Assembly (NCBI GenBank): GCA_947472735.1
Contig: CANJBY010000005.1
Location: 17,175 to 81,174, forward strand
Length of the DNA: 64,000 nucleotides
Source of the DNA: Sphingomonadaceae bacterium
Lineage (GTDB): Bacteria > Pseudomonadota > Alphaproteobacteria > Sphingomonadales > Sphingomonadaceae
Direction of reading: 5' to 3'
Each line of letters opens with the position of its first letter. The stretch's first letter is position 1. A model generated the notes under the pieces. It made no database searches, was not told the DNA's origin, and saw only the letters and a program-made list of their open reading frames with translations. Position numbers and translations under genes: made by a program. This document shows positions 14,610 to 21,948 of the stretch, one piece after another.

Positions 14610-16115
14610 ATGAGCACCAACGCCAACATTGCAGCGCAGTTCCTCGCCGTCGCCGCGGAGCAGGGCAGCAAGCCCTTCCTGATCGAACATGGGGAAACCG
14701 TGCTGACTTTCGCCGATCTGGAATCCCGGACCGGCCGTCTGGCTGCGCGGCTCCAGACGCTGGGCGGCAAGCCCGGTGAGCGGATCGTGGTGCAGATCGA
14801 CAAGTCGCCCGATAACGTGTTGCTCTACCTTGCCGCACTACGGCTCGGGATTATCTACGTGCCGCTCAATACTGCCTACACGGCTGCGGAACTGGCCTAT
14901 TTCATCGGCGACGCGGAGCCAGTGGTCGTCGTATGCCGACCAGGCGACGAGCTTTCGGTCCGCGAACTGGCCGGCGCCGCGCGCGTGGTGACACTGGGCC
15001 CCGCTGGCGATGGATCGCTGTTCGACTCCATCCCCGAGAATCCGGCACCTGTCGCTCACTGCGGCGCGGACGAACTGGCGGTAATCCTCTATACTTCCGG
15101 CACCACTGGTCGCTCGAAAGGCGCCATGCTCAGTCACGGGAACCTCGCCAGCAATGCCCTGACGCTGAAGGACTACTGGCGCTGGTCGAGCGACGATGTG
15201 CTGATCCATATCCTGCCGATCTACCACGTCCACGGCCTGTTCGTGGCGCTCCATGGCGCGCTGCTGGCCGGCGCAACCATGCTGTTCCACCGAGGCTTCG
15301 ATCCCGCGCAAGTGATTGCTGAATTTGCCAGTGCTACCGTTTTGATGGGGGTGCCGACGCATTACACCCGGCTCACGGCCACAGATCACCTGACGCCTGA
15401 GGCCTGCCGCTCCATGCGCTTGTTCGTCTCCGGCTCGGCGCCTCTGTTGGCCGAGGCGCACCAGCGCTTCGAAGAGAAGACTGGTCACCGCATCCTCGAA
15501 CGCTACGGCATGACCGAGACCGGCATGATCTGCTCCAATCCCTATCATGCCGAGCGGGTTGCCGGAACCGTCGGCTATGCTCTCCCGGGAGAGGAAGTGC
15601 GTATCTGCGATGAGCAGGGTAGCGCGGTGAAGCAAGGCGAGCCCGGCGTGCTCGAAGTGTGCGGACCGAATGTTTTCAAAGGGTACTGGCGCAATCCCGA
15701 GAAAACGTCCGAAGATATTCGAGCGGACGGATTTTTCATCACCGGTGACATCGCAACCATGGCTGCTGACGGCCGGGTGACGCTGGTCGGCCGGGCTAAG
15801 GACTTGATCATTTCGGGGGGTCTCAACATCTACCCCAAAGAGATCGAGGAAGCGATCGACGCGCTTCCCGGCGTAGACGAATCCGCCGTGATCGGCCTGC
15901 CAGACGCCGATTTCGGAGAGGCGGTGGTGGCCATCGTCGCCCACCAGAAGGGCGCGGACGTTCAGGAGGAAGCCGTCAAGACGGCCTTGCAAGACCAGCT
16001 CGCGCGATTCAAGCAGCCGCGCCGGGTGGTGGTGGTCGAGAGCCTGCCGCGCAATGCCATGGGCAAAGTCCAGAAGGCAGCATTGCGGCAGGAATACGCC
16101 CGATTGCTGGACTAG
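14610..16115 (+). CDS. AMP-forming acyl-CoA synthetase, MatB-like
   Basis: ANL-superfamily ligase of 501 aa that activates a carboxylic acid to its CoA thioester. The P-loop ILYTSGTTGRSKGAM, the adenylation motif ERYGMTETGM, the GDIA hinge region and the C-terminal lysine motif PRNAMGKVQK are all present. The LPIYHVHGLFVALHGALLAG and GVPTHYTRL stretches resemble malonyl-CoA synthetase (MatB) more than long-chain ligases. Placed 40 bases after the MoaD-like gene, it probably belongs to the molybdenum hydroxylase operon. Its stop shares a CTAG with the convergent regulator. Confidence 0.85.
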   Translation: MSTNANIAAQFLAVAAEQGSKPFLIEHGETVLTFADLESRTGRLAARLQTLGGKPGERIVVQIDKSPDNVLLYLAALRLGIIYVPLNTAYTAAELAYFIGDAEPVVVVCRPGDELSVRELAGAARVVTLGPAGDGSLFDSIPENPAPVAHCGADELAVILYTSGTTGRSKGAMLSHGNLASNALTLKDYWRWSSDDVLIHILPIYHVHGLFVALHGALLAGATMLFHRGFDPAQVIAEFASATVLMGVPTHYTRLTATDHLTPEACRSMRLFVSGSAPLLAEAHQRFEEKTGHRILERYGMTETGMICSNPYHAERVAGTVGYALPGEEVRICDEQGSAVKQGEPGVLEVCGPNVFKGYWRNPEKTSEDIRADGFFITGDIATMAADGRVTLVGRAKDLIISGGLNIYPKEIEEAIDALPGVDESAVIGLPDADFGEAVVAIVAHQKGADVQEEAVKTALQDQLARFKQPRRVVVVESLPRNAMGKVQKAALRQEYARLLD

Positions 16116-16840
16116 CCTGCGGCGCGCCAGTTCTCGACGGCCAAGCCATCGAGCACGTAACCGTAGGACCTTACTGTTCTCAGCGGATCGGGCACGCCGT
16201 GGGCTCTCAGCGCCCGACGCAGGCGTCCGACCCAGACGTCGACCGTCCGCTCATCGAGCGCGGCGGCGTCCTTGCCCAGCACCGTAATCAGCGCTGAGCG
16301 GCTGAACACCTGATCCGGATGCTCGACGAAGTGTGCGAGCAGGCGAAACTCGGTGGGTCGAAGCGGCACCACGGCCCCCTGCCAACGGGCATGGTGAGCC
16401 GCAAGATCGACCGATAGCGCACCGTGGGAGAGCCGGGGTTTCGCCTTGATCTGCGTACCGCCGCAATAGGTCTTCAGCCGGTCCGCGAGCTTGATGAGGT
16501 TGAGCGGTCCGAGCAGATAGTCGTCCGCGCCGGCACGTAGCGCTCGGCGGCGGACGTCGGAATTGTCTTCATCCAGCACCATCGTGATGTGCAGGTCGGC
16601 AAGTTCCGGCAAAGCGCGAAGCTGGCGGCACATTTCCAAACCCGAGATGGTCGGCAGCAGCCAGTCGATAAAACACAACGAAAGACCTCGCACGCGCTGC
16701 TTCGGGATGGTGTCGCCAATCTCGATTGCTGTCACGTCCGGCATTACTTCGCCGAGGTCAGCGAGCAGCCCTGGCTGCGTAGATGTCAAAAACAAGGTCA
16801 GTTCGTCAGGCATCGAGATCCACGAAGTTGAACGGGCCAC
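16112..16840 (-). CDS. PhoB/OmpR-type regulator with degenerate receiver
   Basis: A response-regulator-like protein of up to 242 aa. The C-terminal winged helix is very close to PhoB (RPTEFRLLAHFVEHPDQVFSRSALI; ERTVDVWVGRLRRAL; VRSYGYVL). In the N-terminal receiver the phospho-acceptor position is kept (CFIDWLLPT), but the paired acidic residues near the start are missing (LTLFLTSTQPG), as are the switch threonine and the lysine (LGPLN instead of K-P-x). It may therefore act without phosphorylation or with another input. No histidine kinase is adjacent. The track start is a GTG at 16840; ATG at 16813 (MPDELTLFL) is a plausible alternative. It is divergent from the TonB receptor across a region of PhoB-like half-sites. 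Confidence 0.82.
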   Translation of the reverse strand: MARSTSWISMPDELTLFLTSTQPGLLADLGEVMPDVTAIEIGDTIPKQRVRGLSLCFIDWLLPTISGLEMCRQLRALPELADLHITMVLDEDNSDVRRRALRAGADDYLLGPLNLIKLADRLKTYCGGTQIKAKPRLSHGALSVDLAAHHARWQGAVVPLRPTEFRLLAHFVEHPDQVFSRSALITVLGKDAAALDERTVDVWVGRLRRALRAHGVPDPLRTVRSYGYVLDGLAVENWRAAG

Positions 16841-16859
16841 GCCTTATTGCCCGTGTTGC

Positions 16860-16877
16860 ATGACGGTTTTGTGACGG
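16860..16877 (-). promoter_or_regulatory. Pho-box-like pair of half-sites
   Basis: On the minus strand the sequence is CCGTCACAAAACCGTCAT: two 7-base half-sites 11 bases apart. It differs from the enterobacterial Pho box (CTGTCATA-A/T-rich-CTGTCAY) at about three positions. It lies 20 bases upstream of the PhoB-like regulator gene, pointing toward it, so autoregulation by that regulator or control by PhoB is likely. Confidence 0.55.
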
Positions 16878-16896
16878 AAAACGGTCATTTATCTCT

Positions 16897-16947
16897 GTGT
16901 CACATCAATGACTCACTGGTGTCGGTTTGTTGTCGGCAAAGAGTCGC
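16897..16947 (+). promoter_or_regulatory. array of 11-bp-spaced PhoB-type half-sites before the TonB receptor
   Basis: Reading the plus strand with an exact 11-base step gives GTGTCAC, ATGACTC, GTGTCGG, TTGTCGG and GAGTCGC. Four of five keep a GTC or GAC core. This helical-phase direct repeat is the usual binding pattern of PhoB/OmpR dimers bound side by side. The array ends about 115 bases before the TonB receptor start, suitable for activation. The repeat is read directly; the protein that binds is inferred. Confidence 0.5.
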
Positions 16948-17062
16948 GGTGCCGCAATCGGCGGGGCCTAGCCGCCATTTCGGCAGGGGGTCTCCCGGCG
17001 AATCGCAAAGGCGATGCCGCATCTCCCGCTTCGACGACACACCCAATGAGGGACACTAAAAC

Positions 17063-19699
17063 ATGAAACGCTCAGTTTCGACTTTCGCTGCCTCGCTCTC
17101 CGCGCTGGCTTTCGCTCAGTGCGCCTATGCAGCGACAGCAAACGATTTCGTGACCGTAACCGCATCCGAAATCGCCGTGAACGCCGATGGTGCGGGCGAA
17201 GCCCCATCAGATCCCGCAGTGGCGCAAGGCAACGACAGCGGTCTCACCGACATCGTGGTCACCGCCACCAAGCGCGAGACCAACCTCCAGCGCACCCCGA
17301 TTTCGATCTCGGTGATGGGCGCAGACACGGTGCGCGAGCGCAAGGTGCAGAGCCTGCTCGACCTGTCCGACGGCGGCGTTCCCAGCTTGCGCGTCGCTAC
17401 CTTCGAGGCCCGTCAGTCCGCCCTTACCATCGGGATCAGGGGCATTGTGCCGCTGGATGCGAACCAGCCCGCGCGCGAGCAGGGCGTCGGCATCTATATC
17501 GACGGCGTCTACCTCGGCCGTCAGCATGGTCTAAACGCAGCGCTGTTCGATATCGAGCGGATCGAAGTGCTCAAAGGACCCCAGGGTACCCTGTTTGGCC
17601 GTAACACCGAGGGCGGTGCCCTTTCGATGATCAGCAAGGCCCCGAGCGGCAATTTTAACGGTCGGGTCGAAGGCAGCATCGGTAACCTTGGTTCCTACAA
17701 TGGCGGGATCCATCTTGACTTGCCTGAATTCGCCGGCTTCTCGATCAAGCTTGACGGGGTAATCTCTCATCAGGATCCGGTCACGGAAAACCCGATGTCT
17801 GGGCAGGCGGGGTGGGGCCTCTACCACCGTAAGGGCGGCCGCGTAGCGGTACGTTGGCAGCCGATCGAAGCGATCACCAACGATTTCGCATTCGATATTG
17901 CGCACGACGAGAACACGCCGTTCTACAGCCAGTTGCTGAACTACAACCCGAACAATTGCCTGAGCGGCGGTACCAATGCCGCGCCGATCGCGATCCCGAC
18001 CGGCAGTACCTGCGTCACCCCAGGTACGGCCTTCACCAGCACTCAGGGGACGATCCGTTCGCTCCTCCCCGGAGTGATTGTCAACGGAACGACGCTGATG
18101 CGCACCGCCGATATCGGAGTTCCGCAGAAGGTCAGCGTCGACAAGACCCACGGATTCACCAACACGTTCAAATGGACGATTGCACCGGAAATCGAACTGC
18201 GCTCGATCACCGCCTGGCGCGGTGTCGATGTGGAGCAGTGGGATAACTCGGGCGGCGCGCATCGCGTGCCGGTGGTTAACCTGACCGCATCGTGCACCGC
18301 TACCGCGCCTTGCGCTTTCAGCCGCTACAGCCTTGCCGATTTGCGCCAGCGTCAATTCAGCCAGGAACTGCAGGCGGTTGGTTCGATCGGTCCGGTCGAC
18401 TACGTCGCAGGTCTCTACTACTTCAACGAGCACGTCAGCGACGATGCCGCAACGCCAAACTCGATCGGTGCCGTGGCGACGCTGAACAGCGCGAATGCGG
18501 TAATCGGGGCCACTTACGTGTCCATTCCGTTCTGCACCGCCAATACACCTCAGTTTGTGGGCAACGCCGTCAATGGCTGTTCGATAGACCGCGCCTCTGA
18601 AGTCTGGTCGAAGAGCTATGCCGCCTACGGCCAGTTGACCTGGAACGCGAACGAGGCGCTGCACATCACTGTCGGTGGGCGCTATTCCAAGGACAAGAAG
18701 CGAGGCGTCCTGCACTTTTCGCGCAACATCAACTACGATACGAACCCGACTGCCGCCGCTGCCGCCGGTTACGTCCCGCTCGACAAGACCTGGGACCGGT
18801 TCAACCCGACCGCAACGGTGGCTTACGACTTCAGCGACACCTTGCACGGTTATGCCAAGTACAGCACCGGTTACCGCGCCGGCGGCGCCAGTTCGCGCAC
18901 TTCGGATTATCGGGCTTTCGATCCGGAAGAAGTGAATAGCTACGAAATTGGCCTGAAGGCGGACTTCTGGGATCGCCGTGCCCGCCTGAACCTTGCTGCC
19001 TACACAATGGACCGCAAGAACAGCCAGGTCGACCTCAGCACGATCCAGCCTACGGCGACCGGCAACTTCAACAATCTCGTCACCTTCAATGCTCCGGGGA
19101 CTACCAAGATCCGCGGGATCGAAGCGGACCTGACAGTGAAGCCGGTGGACGGGCTGACACTTGGCCTGTCCTATGCCTACACCTATACCGACGTTCCGCT
19201 GGTTCCTGTGACCTATGAGGAATTCAGCTCCGGGGGCGTGCGTACTGGTAACAAGACCACTGTGCCTCAGAAATTCTATATCGTCTTCACCCCCCGCAAC
19301 GCGGCCAGCGGCTCGATAGACTACGAGCTCCCGGCCTTCGCCGAGGCCCGCGTCAAGTTGCACATCGATGCCAACTACGCCCAGGCAACCCAGTCGTTCG
19401 ATCAGTTCGCGACCAAGGCTGACGGGTCGTTCATCGTCAATGGGCGCCTCTCGTTGCTCGACATCGGCTTGGGCGGTTCAACCAGCAAGTTGTCGGTAAG
19501 CGTGTGGGGACGTAACTTGTTCAACGAGCAGCACGTCTATCGCCGCGATCCTTCAAACAGCCTGCCGTCAGTGCAGTCGACCGCGGCCACCGGCGTGCCG
19601 AACGTGGTCGTAATCGGCAACAATGGCGGGGTTCTGGGTGACTACGGCAATTTCAACACGCCGCGCACCTTTGGTCTCGAAGCATCGCTTTCGTTCTGA
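17063..19699 (+). CDS. TonB-dependent outer membrane receptor
   Basis: An 878-aa outer membrane transporter. There is a signal peptide (MKRSVSTFAASLSALAFAQCAYA), then a TonB-box-like stretch (LTDIVVTATKRETNLQ), the plug domain (SVMGADTVRERKVQSLLDLSD; IDGVYLGRQHG; IEVLKGPQGTLFGRNTEGGAL) and a long beta-barrel ending in LEASLSF with the terminal phenylalanine needed for barrel assembly. The barrel resembles receptors used by sphingomonads for non-siderophore substrates. Substrate unknown. The upstream PhoB-type half-sites would fit uptake of a phosphorylated compound; two secreted paralogues follow downstream. Confidence 0.93.
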   Translation: MKRSVSTFAASLSALAFAQCAYAATANDFVTVTASEIAVNADGAGEAPSDPAVAQGNDSGLTDIVVTATKRETNLQRTPISISVMGADTVRERKVQSLLDLSDGGVPSLRVATFEARQSALTIGIRGIVPLDANQPAREQGVGIYIDGVYLGRQHGLNAALFDIERIEVLKGPQGTLFGRNTEGGALSMISKAPSGNFNGRVEGSIGNLGSYNGGIHLDLPEFAGFSIKLDGVISHQDPVTENPMSGQAGWGLYHRKGGRVAVRWQPIEAITNDFAFDIAHDENTPFYSQLLNYNPNNCLSGGTNAAPIAIPTGSTCVTPGTAFTSTQGTIRSLLPGVIVNGTTLMRTADIGVPQKVSVDKTHGFTNTFKWTIAPEIELRSITAWRGVDVEQWDNSGGAHRVPVVNLTASCTATAPCAFSRYSLADLRQRQFSQELQAVGSIGPVDYVAGLYYFNEHVSDDAATPNSIGAVATLNSANAVIGATYVSIPFCTANTPQFVGNAVNGCSIDRASEVWSKSYAAYGQLTWNANEALHITVGGRYSKDKKRGVLHFSRNINYDTNPTAAAAAGYVPLDKTWDRFNPTATVAYDFSDTLHGYAKYSTGYRAGGASSRTSDYRAFDPEEVNSYEIGLKADFWDRRARLNLAAYTMDRKNSQVDLSTIQPTATGNFNNLVTFNAPGTTKIRGIEADLTVKPVDGLTLGLSYAYTYTDVPLVPVTYEEFSSGGVRTGNKTTVPQKFYIVFTPRNAASGSIDYELPAFAEARVKLHIDANYAQATQSFDQFATKADGSFIVNGRLSLLDIGLGGSTSKLSVSVWGRNLFNEQHVYRRDPSNSLPSVQSTAATGVPNVVVIGNNGGVLGDYGNFNTPRTFGLEASLSF

Positions 19700-19726
19700 T
19701 CCGTTTTCAAATTGCGACCCGACCTG

Positions 19727-19762
19727 GGGCGGGCGGCAGTCAAGCCGTCCGCCCTTCCTTTT
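19727..19762 (+). terminator. rho-independent terminator after the TonB receptor
   Basis: An 11-base stem (GGGCGGGCGGC / GCCGTCCGCCC with one G-U pair) with loop AGTCAA, followed by TTCCTTTT. It lies 28 bases after the receptor stop and separates it, at least partly, from the two secreted-protein genes. Confidence 0.8.
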
Positions 19763-19873
19763 GTCCTCAGCGGAAGAACGAGCCAATTTCCTTATCGCGA
19801 TAAGTTTTCTCTTGGCAGGTCCGAGCACTCCCGCCACACCGTGAACAACAGATCGGACACGCGGGAGTTTGTG

Positions 19874-20857
19874 ATGCGACTGAGACGGATGATCCACAAG
19901 GCGTTGTTGTGCCTCGTCCTCACCCTCCCACATCCGGCGCAGGCTGCCGAGCCTTGCGATCGCAACTGCCTCGAAAGCCACGCCAACGCCTATATTGCCG
20001 CCGCGCTGGCACACGATTTGTCGAAGCTGCCGCTCGCCCCTGACGTCAAGGTCGCAGAGAACAACAGCGCGATCAGACCGGGCGAGGGCTCCTTTGCTAC
20101 GTTGAGCGGGCAAGGCAAGTATCGCCATTATTTCGCCGATCCGGTCACCGGCAGTGTCGGCCTCATCACCACGGTCACCGAGCATGGCGCGAAGGGAATC
20201 CTCGATCTCCGGATGCGCGTGGTTGATGGCAAGATCGCCGAGATCGAGACGCTGATGATCCGCGACGCTGGCGGGCATGACCGGTACGAGGCGCTGGTTG
20301 GTCCCGAGCAGCCATGGCTCGATGTCATACCTCCCGAAAAGCGTCTTTCGCGGGCGGAGATGGTCCGCGCGGTGAACCACTACTTCACATCCATGACGCA
20401 CAATGACGGTCGCGGCGATTACACCTTCTTCGACGACGAGTGCGACCGGCTCGAGCATGCGCTCAAAACCACCAACGTCCGCCAACGCGAAGCCTATGGT
20501 CATTCGAGCGATACCAACTTCAGCTCGCTGACTTGCGCGCAGCAGCAGGAGACCGGTTTCCTCGGCTTCGTCACCGAGATCCGTAACCGCCGCTTTTTCA
20601 TCATCGACGAGGAACGGCAGGTGATGCTCGCGGCTGTTACGCTGGATCACAACGGCACGATCCGCAAGCTGCCGCAAACGAACGGCACCGTCTTCGTCCT
20701 GCCGCCCTACTTCAATGTGCCCCGGACATTGCAGGTTTACGAGGCCTTCAAACTGCGCGGCGAGAAGCTCTACCGGATCGAGATGACGCTGGTCGAAACG
20801 CCCTATGGCAACCGTCCGCCCTGGCAGGACGGCGCGGACATCACGGTGATCAAGTGA
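19874..20857 (+). CDS. secreted protein of unknown function, paralogue 1
   Basis: A 327-aa protein with a signal peptide (IHKALLCLVLTLPHPAQAAEP). The mature part opens with CDRNCLESHANAYIAAALAHD, then LPLAPDVKVAENNSAIRPGEGSF. A second, weaker copy of this pattern begins near MVRAVNHYFTSMTHNDG. The start at 19874 is preceded by GGGAG; the 54 extra residues in the track lie over the terminator of the receptor. I do not know a function. The CDxxCL...EN...G-G-W pattern resembles a family also found in actinobacteria and fungi (possibly DUF8021), from memory only. It overlaps the next gene's leader and is clearly related to it. Confidence 0.8.
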   Translation: MRLRRMIHKALLCLVLTLPHPAQAAEPCDRNCLESHANAYIAAALAHDLSKLPLAPDVKVAENNSAIRPGEGSFATLSGQGKYRHYFADPVTGSVGLITTVTEHGAKGILDLRMRVVDGKIAEIETLMIRDAGGHDRYEALVGPEQPWLDVIPPEKRLSRAEMVRAVNHYFTSMTHNDGRGDYTFFDDECDRLEHALKTTNVRQREAYGHSSDTNFSSLTCAQQQETGFLGFVTEIRNRRFFIIDEERQVMLAAVTLDHNGTIRKLPQTNGTVFVLPPYFNVPRTLQVYEAFKLRGEKLYRIEMTLVETPYGNRPPWQDGADITVIK

Positions 20858-20868
20858 GGAGCGGGGCA

Positions 20869-21948
20869 ATGTTCAGGTTGATGTTTTCCGGCGTTGCCGT
20901 CGCCGCACTTGCCTTCCCGGCGATTGCGGCCACGACGCCAACCTGCGACGAGGTTTGCCTGAACCGCCTGGCCGATCAGTTCGTGCAAGCGATGGCGGTC
21001 AACGACGGTTCGCGCCTGCCGCTTGGCACGTCCTTCCGCTACACCGAGAACGGTCAAAGGCTCGAGCCGGGTGACGGGATGTGGGGCACGCTCAGTGCCT
21101 ATGCCGGACAGGATACGGCGCTGTCTCCGGCGGCGGCCAAACTACCCTATCGATTGACCCTGTTCGATCCGGCCAAGGGCGAGGTCGTTCGACTGGTAGA
21201 AACTGACGAGAACTCCACGCGGGGCCTGACCGTTTTGCGTCTGAAGCTGGACGCCGAAGGCAAGCTCGGCGAGGCCGAAGTGTTGCCGGTGCGCGAGGAA
21301 TTCGCCGGGAACCGGGGTGGAACGGTAACCCTGCTGCAGCCGTTGCTGCTGGTCACCATGGACGGTGAGAAGCTCGAGGCGGCAGACCCGCTGCTGAGCC
21401 GGCGTGAGGCAACATCGTCAAGTCCCGCCGAATTGCAGGCCGCCGCCGATGCCTATCTCGATGCCATGCAAGGCGGGAAGGGCGGGGCGGCTCCAATCGC
21501 GGAAGATTGCTTGCGCCGGGACAACGGCGTGCGCACCACGGGCAACTCCGCGAGTGATCCGCTCGATCCGGCGAAACCTGCTTTCAAGCCTTTCGCGCTG
21601 TCCTGCCAGGCCCAGCTCGACAGCGGGTTCTATTCCAATGTGGCCCGCATTCGCGACCGCCGTTACGTGGTGGACGCCGCGCGCGGTCTGGTGCTGGTGC
21701 TGACTCAGATGGATCTTCCCGGAACCTGGCTTACATTCAAGGCGCCCAAGGTGGGTACCGTTGCCTATCCCGGCCCGCGCGGCACCGATCCTGCGCTCGA
21801 CGGGCAGTTCGCCAATCGCTTCAGCGCCAATATGATCGCCCCGGTTTCGATGAATGCGGCGCTGCTGTTCAAGGTTGTGGAAGGTAAGATTGCCCGGATC
21901 GACGCGTTTTACCGCGGTGCGCCGCTGGGGATCAAGTCGGGCTGGTAG
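20869..21948 (+). CDS. secreted protein of unknown function, paralogue 2
   Basis: A 359-aa protein with a signal peptide (FSGVAVAALAFPAIAATTP). The mature N-terminus CDEVCLNRLADQFVQAMAVND and FRYTENGQRLEPGDGMWGTL align with the same places in the preceding gene, so the two are tandem paralogues. A second internal unit starts at AELQAAADAYLDAMQGGKGG and again reaches C-LRRDNGVRTTGN, so each protein looks like two copies of one domain. ATG at 20869 with GAGGAG seven bases upstream is preferred to the GTG at 20854. Role unknown; secretion and position suggest processing or binding of the substrate of the nearby TonB receptor. Confidence 0.8.
   Translation: MFRLMFSGVAVAALAFPAIAATTPTCDEVCLNRLADQFVQAMAVNDGSRLPLGTSFRYTENGQRLEPGDGMWGTLSAYAGQDTALSPAAAKLPYRLTLFDPAKGEVVRLVETDENSTRGLTVLRLKLDAEGKLGEAEVLPVREEFAGNRGGTVTLLQPLLLVTMDGEKLEAADPLLSRREATSSSPAELQAAADAYLDAMQGGKGGAAPIAEDCLRRDNGVRTTGNSASDPLDPAKPAFKPFALSCQAQLDSGFYSNVARIRDRRYVVDAARGLVLVLTQMDLPGTWLTFKAPKVGTVAYPGPRGTDPALDGQFANRFSANMIAPVSMNAALLFKVVEGKIARIDAFYRGAPLGIKSGW

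Follow-up and report, generated by a model that had tools for sequence, protein, structure and literature searches.

Opposed arrays of Pho-type half-sites between the genes of a pseudo-receiver PhoB paralogue and a TonB-dependent receptor in Novosphingobium

The Pho box is composed of two 11-nucleotide direct repeats, which read CTGTCAT in Escherichia coli (PMC4415409). At E. coli pstS and phoA, these repeats, with their GTCAY core, occupy the -35 position ahead of the -10 element. Receptor and lipid genes are also found behind boxes of this type: in the excerpts of the reports considered here, the Pho regulon of Caulobacter has TonB receptors among its members, which are thought to take up other phosphate donors (PMC11208175), and plcP-agt serves phospholipid replacement under phosphorus deficiency, with plcP being phosphorus-responsive in marine bacteria and putative Pho boxes lying ahead of the plcP clusters (PMC4796936); a dedicated pseudo-receiver PhoB paralogue is mentioned in neither excerpt. 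Winged helices that bind direct repeats are likewise present in HP1043, ChxR and GlnR, whose receivers lack phosphorylation residues or are phosphorylation-independent; none of these regulators is known to be a close PhoB paralogue associated with Pho boxes. Pseudo-receivers are common, and how they are switched is still an open question (PMC12632262).

The locus described here lies in a 64,000-nucleotide stretch of a sphingomonad draft genome (hereafter, the window), in the gap between a regulator gene on the minus strand (16112-16813), which encodes a 233-aa protein with a pseudo-receiver and a PhoB/OmpR-type winged helix, and a gene for an 878-aa TonB-dependent receptor on the plus strand (17063-19699; Pfam Plug, 3e-16; TonB_dep_Rec_b-barrel, 1e-34). 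This gap contains two opposed rows of 7-base half-sites set in 11-base steps. On the minus strand, positions 16877-16860 read CCGTCAC AAAA CCGTCAT, which matches CTGTCAT-N4-CTGTCAT at 11 of 14 positions and bears out the Pho-box-like sequence that an earlier note on this DNA, made from the sequence alone, had placed facing the regulator. The proximal half-site, CCGTCAT (16860-16866), and the second, CCGTCAC (16871-16877), one exact 11-base step away, are both supported by direct reading, the orthologous gaps, the sister species and a genome-wide motif scan. A further exact 11-base step leads to a third, weaker and degenerate half-site that had been overlooked, ATGACCG (minus strand, 16888-16882); in the family column profile, roughly 86-88% of the promoters of one regulator branch (the TonB branch, see below) have TG(T/A)C at this phase, and TGAC is kept in the sister species. 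On the plus strand, four half-sites in exact 11-base steps can be read directly between 16897 and 16936: GTGTCAC (16897-16903), which is identical in the sister species and has the T-type form found at pstS; ATGACTC (16908-16914), which corresponds to CTGTCGC in the sister species; GTGTCGG (16919-16925), with TGTCGG kept there; and TTGTCGG (16930-16936), with GTCGG kept. The earlier note had listed the same run, and its exact spacing toward the receptor stands, but ATGACTC is a degenerate half-site and a weak element. The GTCAY core, the 11-nucleotide direct repeats and the -35 position before a -10 element are shared with the E. coli Pho box; unlike the latter, the present gap holds two opposed arrays and belongs to a PhoB paralogue, its regulator side carries CGTCAY rather than TGTCAY, and its receptor side ends in TGTCGG.

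The open frame of the regulator extends to a GTG at 16840; the alignment of orthologue starts favours the ATG at 16813, most likely the actual start codon, and this places the regulator-side box outside the coding sequence. A candidate -10 element, CAATAA (minus strand, 16844-16849), is positioned 10 bases past the proximal half-site. When the promoters were aligned on the proximal pair, more than 90% of the regulator promoters had a CA at one and the same distance downstream of the proximal GTCA core, and the third half-site appeared at the same phase in the column profile. The conserved CA stands where a -10 element would be expected and is probably part of the regulator -10. The geometry of the regulator promoter is that of an activator box at the -35 position. 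On the receptor side, a candidate -10 element, CGCAAT (plus strand, 16953-16958), lies 17 bases past TTGTCG, and CGCAATC is kept in the sister species; the TTGTCG of the fourth half-site fits a -35 element and could double as one. A fixed position of the box ahead of the -10 was found on the regulator side and is presumed on the receptor side.

Within the single sequence, the 18-base regulator-side box alone is moderately unusual: dinucleotide shuffling of the gap gave an equally good box in 14 of 1000 trials, and the 64-kb window has three places with an equal score. The four-step run has no second occurrence among the 127,920 positions of the window, and none of 500 shuffled gaps contained it. 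Both sets of statistics are post hoc, the pattern having been picked after it was seen, and the decisive support is the comparison of orthologous gaps. A search with the regulator protein, covering 61 relatives as well as 196 genomes from its genus, which named relatives identify as Novosphingobium, revealed two branches of regulators, hereafter the TonB branch and the plcP branch. In the 44 tested gaps of the TonB branch, exact GTCA pairs occur 57 times at a distance of 11 bases and 31 times at 22 bases, against 0.3 expected in either case, and each distance from 12 to 21 bases gave at most 3 pairs; in the 37 gaps of the plcP branch, the corresponding numbers are 56 at 11 bases and 41 at 22 bases. 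An arrangement of two or more 7-mers in 11-nucleotide direct repeats, as in a Pho box, was thus found, with enrichment only at 11 and 22. The exact pair GTCA-N7-GTCA is present upstream of 38/46 and 56/62 regulators, compared with 27/460 other genes of the same loci, several of these 27 themselves adjoining the loci, as well as upstream of 26/29 plcP genes and 7/8 pstS genes, and a pair upstream of the regulator was found again in Erythrobacteraceae. The sister species has a regulator with 73% identity; in its gap, identity amounts to 83% over the regulator-side box and 70% over the run, compared with 54-58% for the remainder, and the phase of the half-sites is unchanged. The phase in orthologous gaps had been chosen beforehand as the point on which the array should stand or fall, and the 11-base phase is kept in nearly all of them; on this comparative evidence, the array is conserved across dozens of related species, and the earlier claim that the pattern exceeds chance in 90 bases holds.

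A scan of the 2.48-Mb genome with the strict motif YGTCAYN5YGTCAY gave five matches, and the reversed control gave none. One match is the present gap, three are at the phoR-pst locus (contig C21), where genuine Pho genes of this genome reside, and one falls within the coding sequence of a short-chain dehydrogenase. In this genome, the box of pstS reads TGTCATCAATTTGTCAT. Since the strict motif is confined to the gap, phoR-pst and one coding site, the gap is assigned to the Pho-box type: by sequence, it holds an operator of the same kind as those of pst, to which PhoB is predicted to bind. The earlier suggestion that PhoB-like half-sites tie together the regulator, the receptor and possibly phosphate supply is supported, and the phosphate link is stronger than could then be known, because the phase is conserved, the motif elsewhere occurs essentially at phoR-pst only, and the sister branch of regulators lies beside plcP-agt and often pst-phoB. 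At the same pst locus, a DUF2490 gene divergent from pstS (L050:1480-2151) has a Pho-type box of its own, CGTCATCAACCTGTCAC. The PhoB proteins of Novosphingobium fall into two lineages that are about 65% identical (L050:7531-8223 and L089:10189-10878).

The regulator matches Pfam Trans_reg_C (8e-18) and, partially, Response_reg (2e-9). Its best family is PhoB (TIGR02154), with which it shares the order of domains, at a score of 140.6 bits, below the curated cut-off of 296.2 for this equivalog. The true PhoB of the genome, which scores 341.5 bits, is encoded by the last gene of the pst operon on contig C21, and the possibility that the regulator is PhoB itself is ruled out. The paralogues, which are distributed in Novosphingobium and Erythrobacteraceae, form a clade separate from PhoB with a support of 100/100, and the TonB branch is nested within it (92/100). 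Among 104 paralogues, Thr83 is replaced by Leu or Met and Lys105 by Gly or Ala in all 104, the metal-binding acid pair (E9/D10) is lost, and the phospho-acceptor Asp53 is retained in 103; the receiver is accordingly not an intact one, which would carry E9/D10, D53, T83 and K105. A receiver devoid of key phosphotransfer residues is thus fused to a winged helix, as in atypical regulators, and fits the definition of a pseudo-receiver (PMC12632262). The receivers of HP1043, ChxR and GlnR are similarly degenerate; in contrast to them, the present clade keeps Asp53 and co-occurs with PhoB. In the winged helix, the DNA-contact residues R193, T194, R201, R203, T217 and R219 are invariant and identical to those of PhoB, whereas His198 of the recognition helix is Trp and Arg200 is lost (Gly, Ser or Thr) in 104/104, and the RNA-polymerase contact Trp184-Gly185 is Gly-Lys in 103/104. 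The E. coli PhoB substitutions W184R and G185R are reported to abolish transcription activation (PMC3973317). From this signature of residues, the paralogue should bind DNA, is apparently blind to phosphorylation, lacking the normal switch, and may not activate in the manner of PhoB.

The two branches differ in their neighbourhoods. In the plcP branch, the regulator is divergent from a calcineurin-like phosphoesterase gene and a glycosyltransferase gene (plcP-agt), and these loci are often within 3-5 kb of phoB-phoU-pst. In the TonB branch, the regulator is divergent from genes for a small secreted protein and a receptor, or from a receptor gene alone as in the window; plcP-agt is nearby in three genomes of this branch (G001, at about 4 kb and together with olsB, G142 and G174), and a phoB gene is just downstream of the receptor gene in a fourth (G214). 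No plcP was found in the genome of the window, a draft that is 95% complete, and part of the phosphate link accordingly rests on relatives.

The organization described above is probably that of a bidirectional Pho-type promoter, at which phosphorylated PhoB would raise the transcription of both genes and the paralogue would also bind and tune the arrays. Winged-helix protomers would line up in tandem, head to tail, each on a half-site displaced from the next by one helical turn (11 bases). Three of these half-sites face the regulator gene and four the receptor gene; on the regulator side, the proximal half-site occupies the -35 position, with the conserved CA-containing -10 element 10 bases further on. 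By analogy with known families, phosphorylated PhoB would occupy the arrays under phosphate limitation; with less certainty, the adjacent paralogue would do so too, and it might control its own gene and adjust receptor expression, perhaps acting as a damper or brake, a speculative role proposed because the paralogue has Gly-Lys in place of the Trp-Gly pair on which activation by PhoB depends. The affinity of PhoB on the receptor side is uncertain, since the two receptor-proximal half-sites are TGTCGG rather than TGTCAY and the second half-site is degenerate. One locus speaks against the bidirectional promoter: in genome G190, the genes for the small protein and the receptor have neither an adjacent regulator nor an array. 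In genome G161, the gene for the small protein is also without an adjacent regulator, and one TGAC-N7-TGAC pair is present upstream, which indicates that the array does not strictly require the regulator as a neighbour.

The base preceding GTCA bears on which protein reads which side. Among 79 regulator promoters, 72 have C at this base of the proximal half-site, as opposed to T in 44 of 46 promoters of small-protein, receptor and pstS genes, and in 12 of the 15 single gaps that have both boxes, the regulator-side box has C and the receptor-side box has T; the direction of the contrast is uniform, the gap in the window agrees with it, and the rows are related, so that Fisher values overstate its significance. 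The contrast may mean that the sites are read by two proteins, PhoB and the paralogue, or by a single one that binds them with two affinities, and the two sides may not share one reader at equal affinity. It is one of three observations, together with the recoded recognition helix and the absence of an array in G190, in favour of a self-contained, autoregulated regulator-receptor module that answers to another signal, in which the array is read by the adjacent paralogue only, with a specificity of its own, and not by PhoB. This is considered unlikely: the receptor-side boxes resemble the pst boxes, which PhoB must read, the sister branch often adjoins pst-phoB, and a C-specific reader leaves the T-type boxes of the receptor side unexplained. 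In addition, when CGTCAYN5CGTCAY was searched in 121 genomes, C-type matches outside the regulator promoters were found at porin-like genes, one of them beside pstS, in the gap between genes for a NUDIX hydrolase and an engB-like GTPase, and in the rpsG-fusA gap, the last being probably unrelated. C-type pairs at the porin and NUDIX hydrolase genes imply that this type is not exclusive to the paralogue, and the idea of a paralogue-only regulon of C-type half-sites was rejected on this account. Upstream of the porin-like genes (L287:3317 and L284:3424) lie several GTCAY half-sites, some of them forming exact 11-base pairs. The 11-base CGTCAC/CGTCAC-type pair at the NUDIX hydrolase gene recurs in five genomes (L280, L281, L282, L283 and L286), with the engB-like gene next door in most.

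A reading of both sides by PhoB alone, with C or T setting the affinity or the strength of the promoter and the paralogue acting elsewhere or only through protein contacts, is regarded as quite improbable. It would agree with CCGTCA being less -35-like than TTGTCA, with the differences in sequence and affinity that the Pho boxes of a single species show (PMC4415409), and with the C-type boxes at other probable phosphate genes; it is opposed by the persistence of operator and paralogue gene together across two families and by the retention of most of the checked DNA-contact residues in the paralogue. An origin of the half-site-like words by chance or base composition, to which the moderate rarity of the 18-base box by itself lends some colour, is ruled out for practical purposes by the phase statistics and the orthologous gaps, with the phase kept in more than 80 gaps, the motif rare genome-wide and the spacing to the -10 fixed.

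Within the bidirectional promoter favoured here, a more specific possibility, put forward tentatively, is that sphingomonads possess a dedicated Pho brake, a phosphorylation-blind and Pho-controlled PhoB paralogue that would sit on the 11-base arrays of PhoB and, owing to its Gly-Lys pair, would not recruit RNA polymerase. If so, the paralogue and PhoB would share the arrays, singly or as mixed tandem arrays, the recoded recognition helix (His198 to Trp) would be matched to the CGTCAY half-sites, and the paralogue would modulate the timing of plcP-agt lipid remodelling in one branch and, in the other, that of TonB-dependent uptake. As an operator, the array is of a known kind; what looks new is a clade of pseudo-receiver PhoB paralogues with Pho-type promoters of their own. 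Among the open-licence papers searched, none connects Novosphingobium, PhoB and phosphate limitation, and none of those listed on atypical regulators describes the clade in its title or abstract. The finding provides a predicted phosphate link for the TonB receptor and for the plcP-agt genes of Novosphingobium, and, because a pseudo-receiver paralogue, its probable operator, PhoB and named phosphate-stress targets can all be identified, their competition or co-operation on one array is directly testable.

Several further genes were identified at these loci. The small secreted protein, whose gene usually sits between the TonB-branch regulator and the receptor, belongs to a family of about 175 aa with no Pfam or NCBIfam match (L039:9914-10435 and about 40 genomes), and a diverged copy is encoded elsewhere in the genome of the window (G000:C37:14491-14991). 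In the window itself, the receptor gene is followed by two tandem genes (19712-21948) for probable secreted proteins without Pfam matches, which are also present in the sister species. A conserved cluster adjoining the plcP-branch regulator (L047:11320-19001, with equivalents in L043, L044, L046, L048 and L051) comprises genes for a TonB receptor, a protein of approximately 530 aa without a Pfam match and a TPR protein, together with VirB2/VirB3/VirB4-like genes; GTCA pairs at exactly 11 bases precede several of its genes, which points to a secretion or surface system that responds to phosphate.
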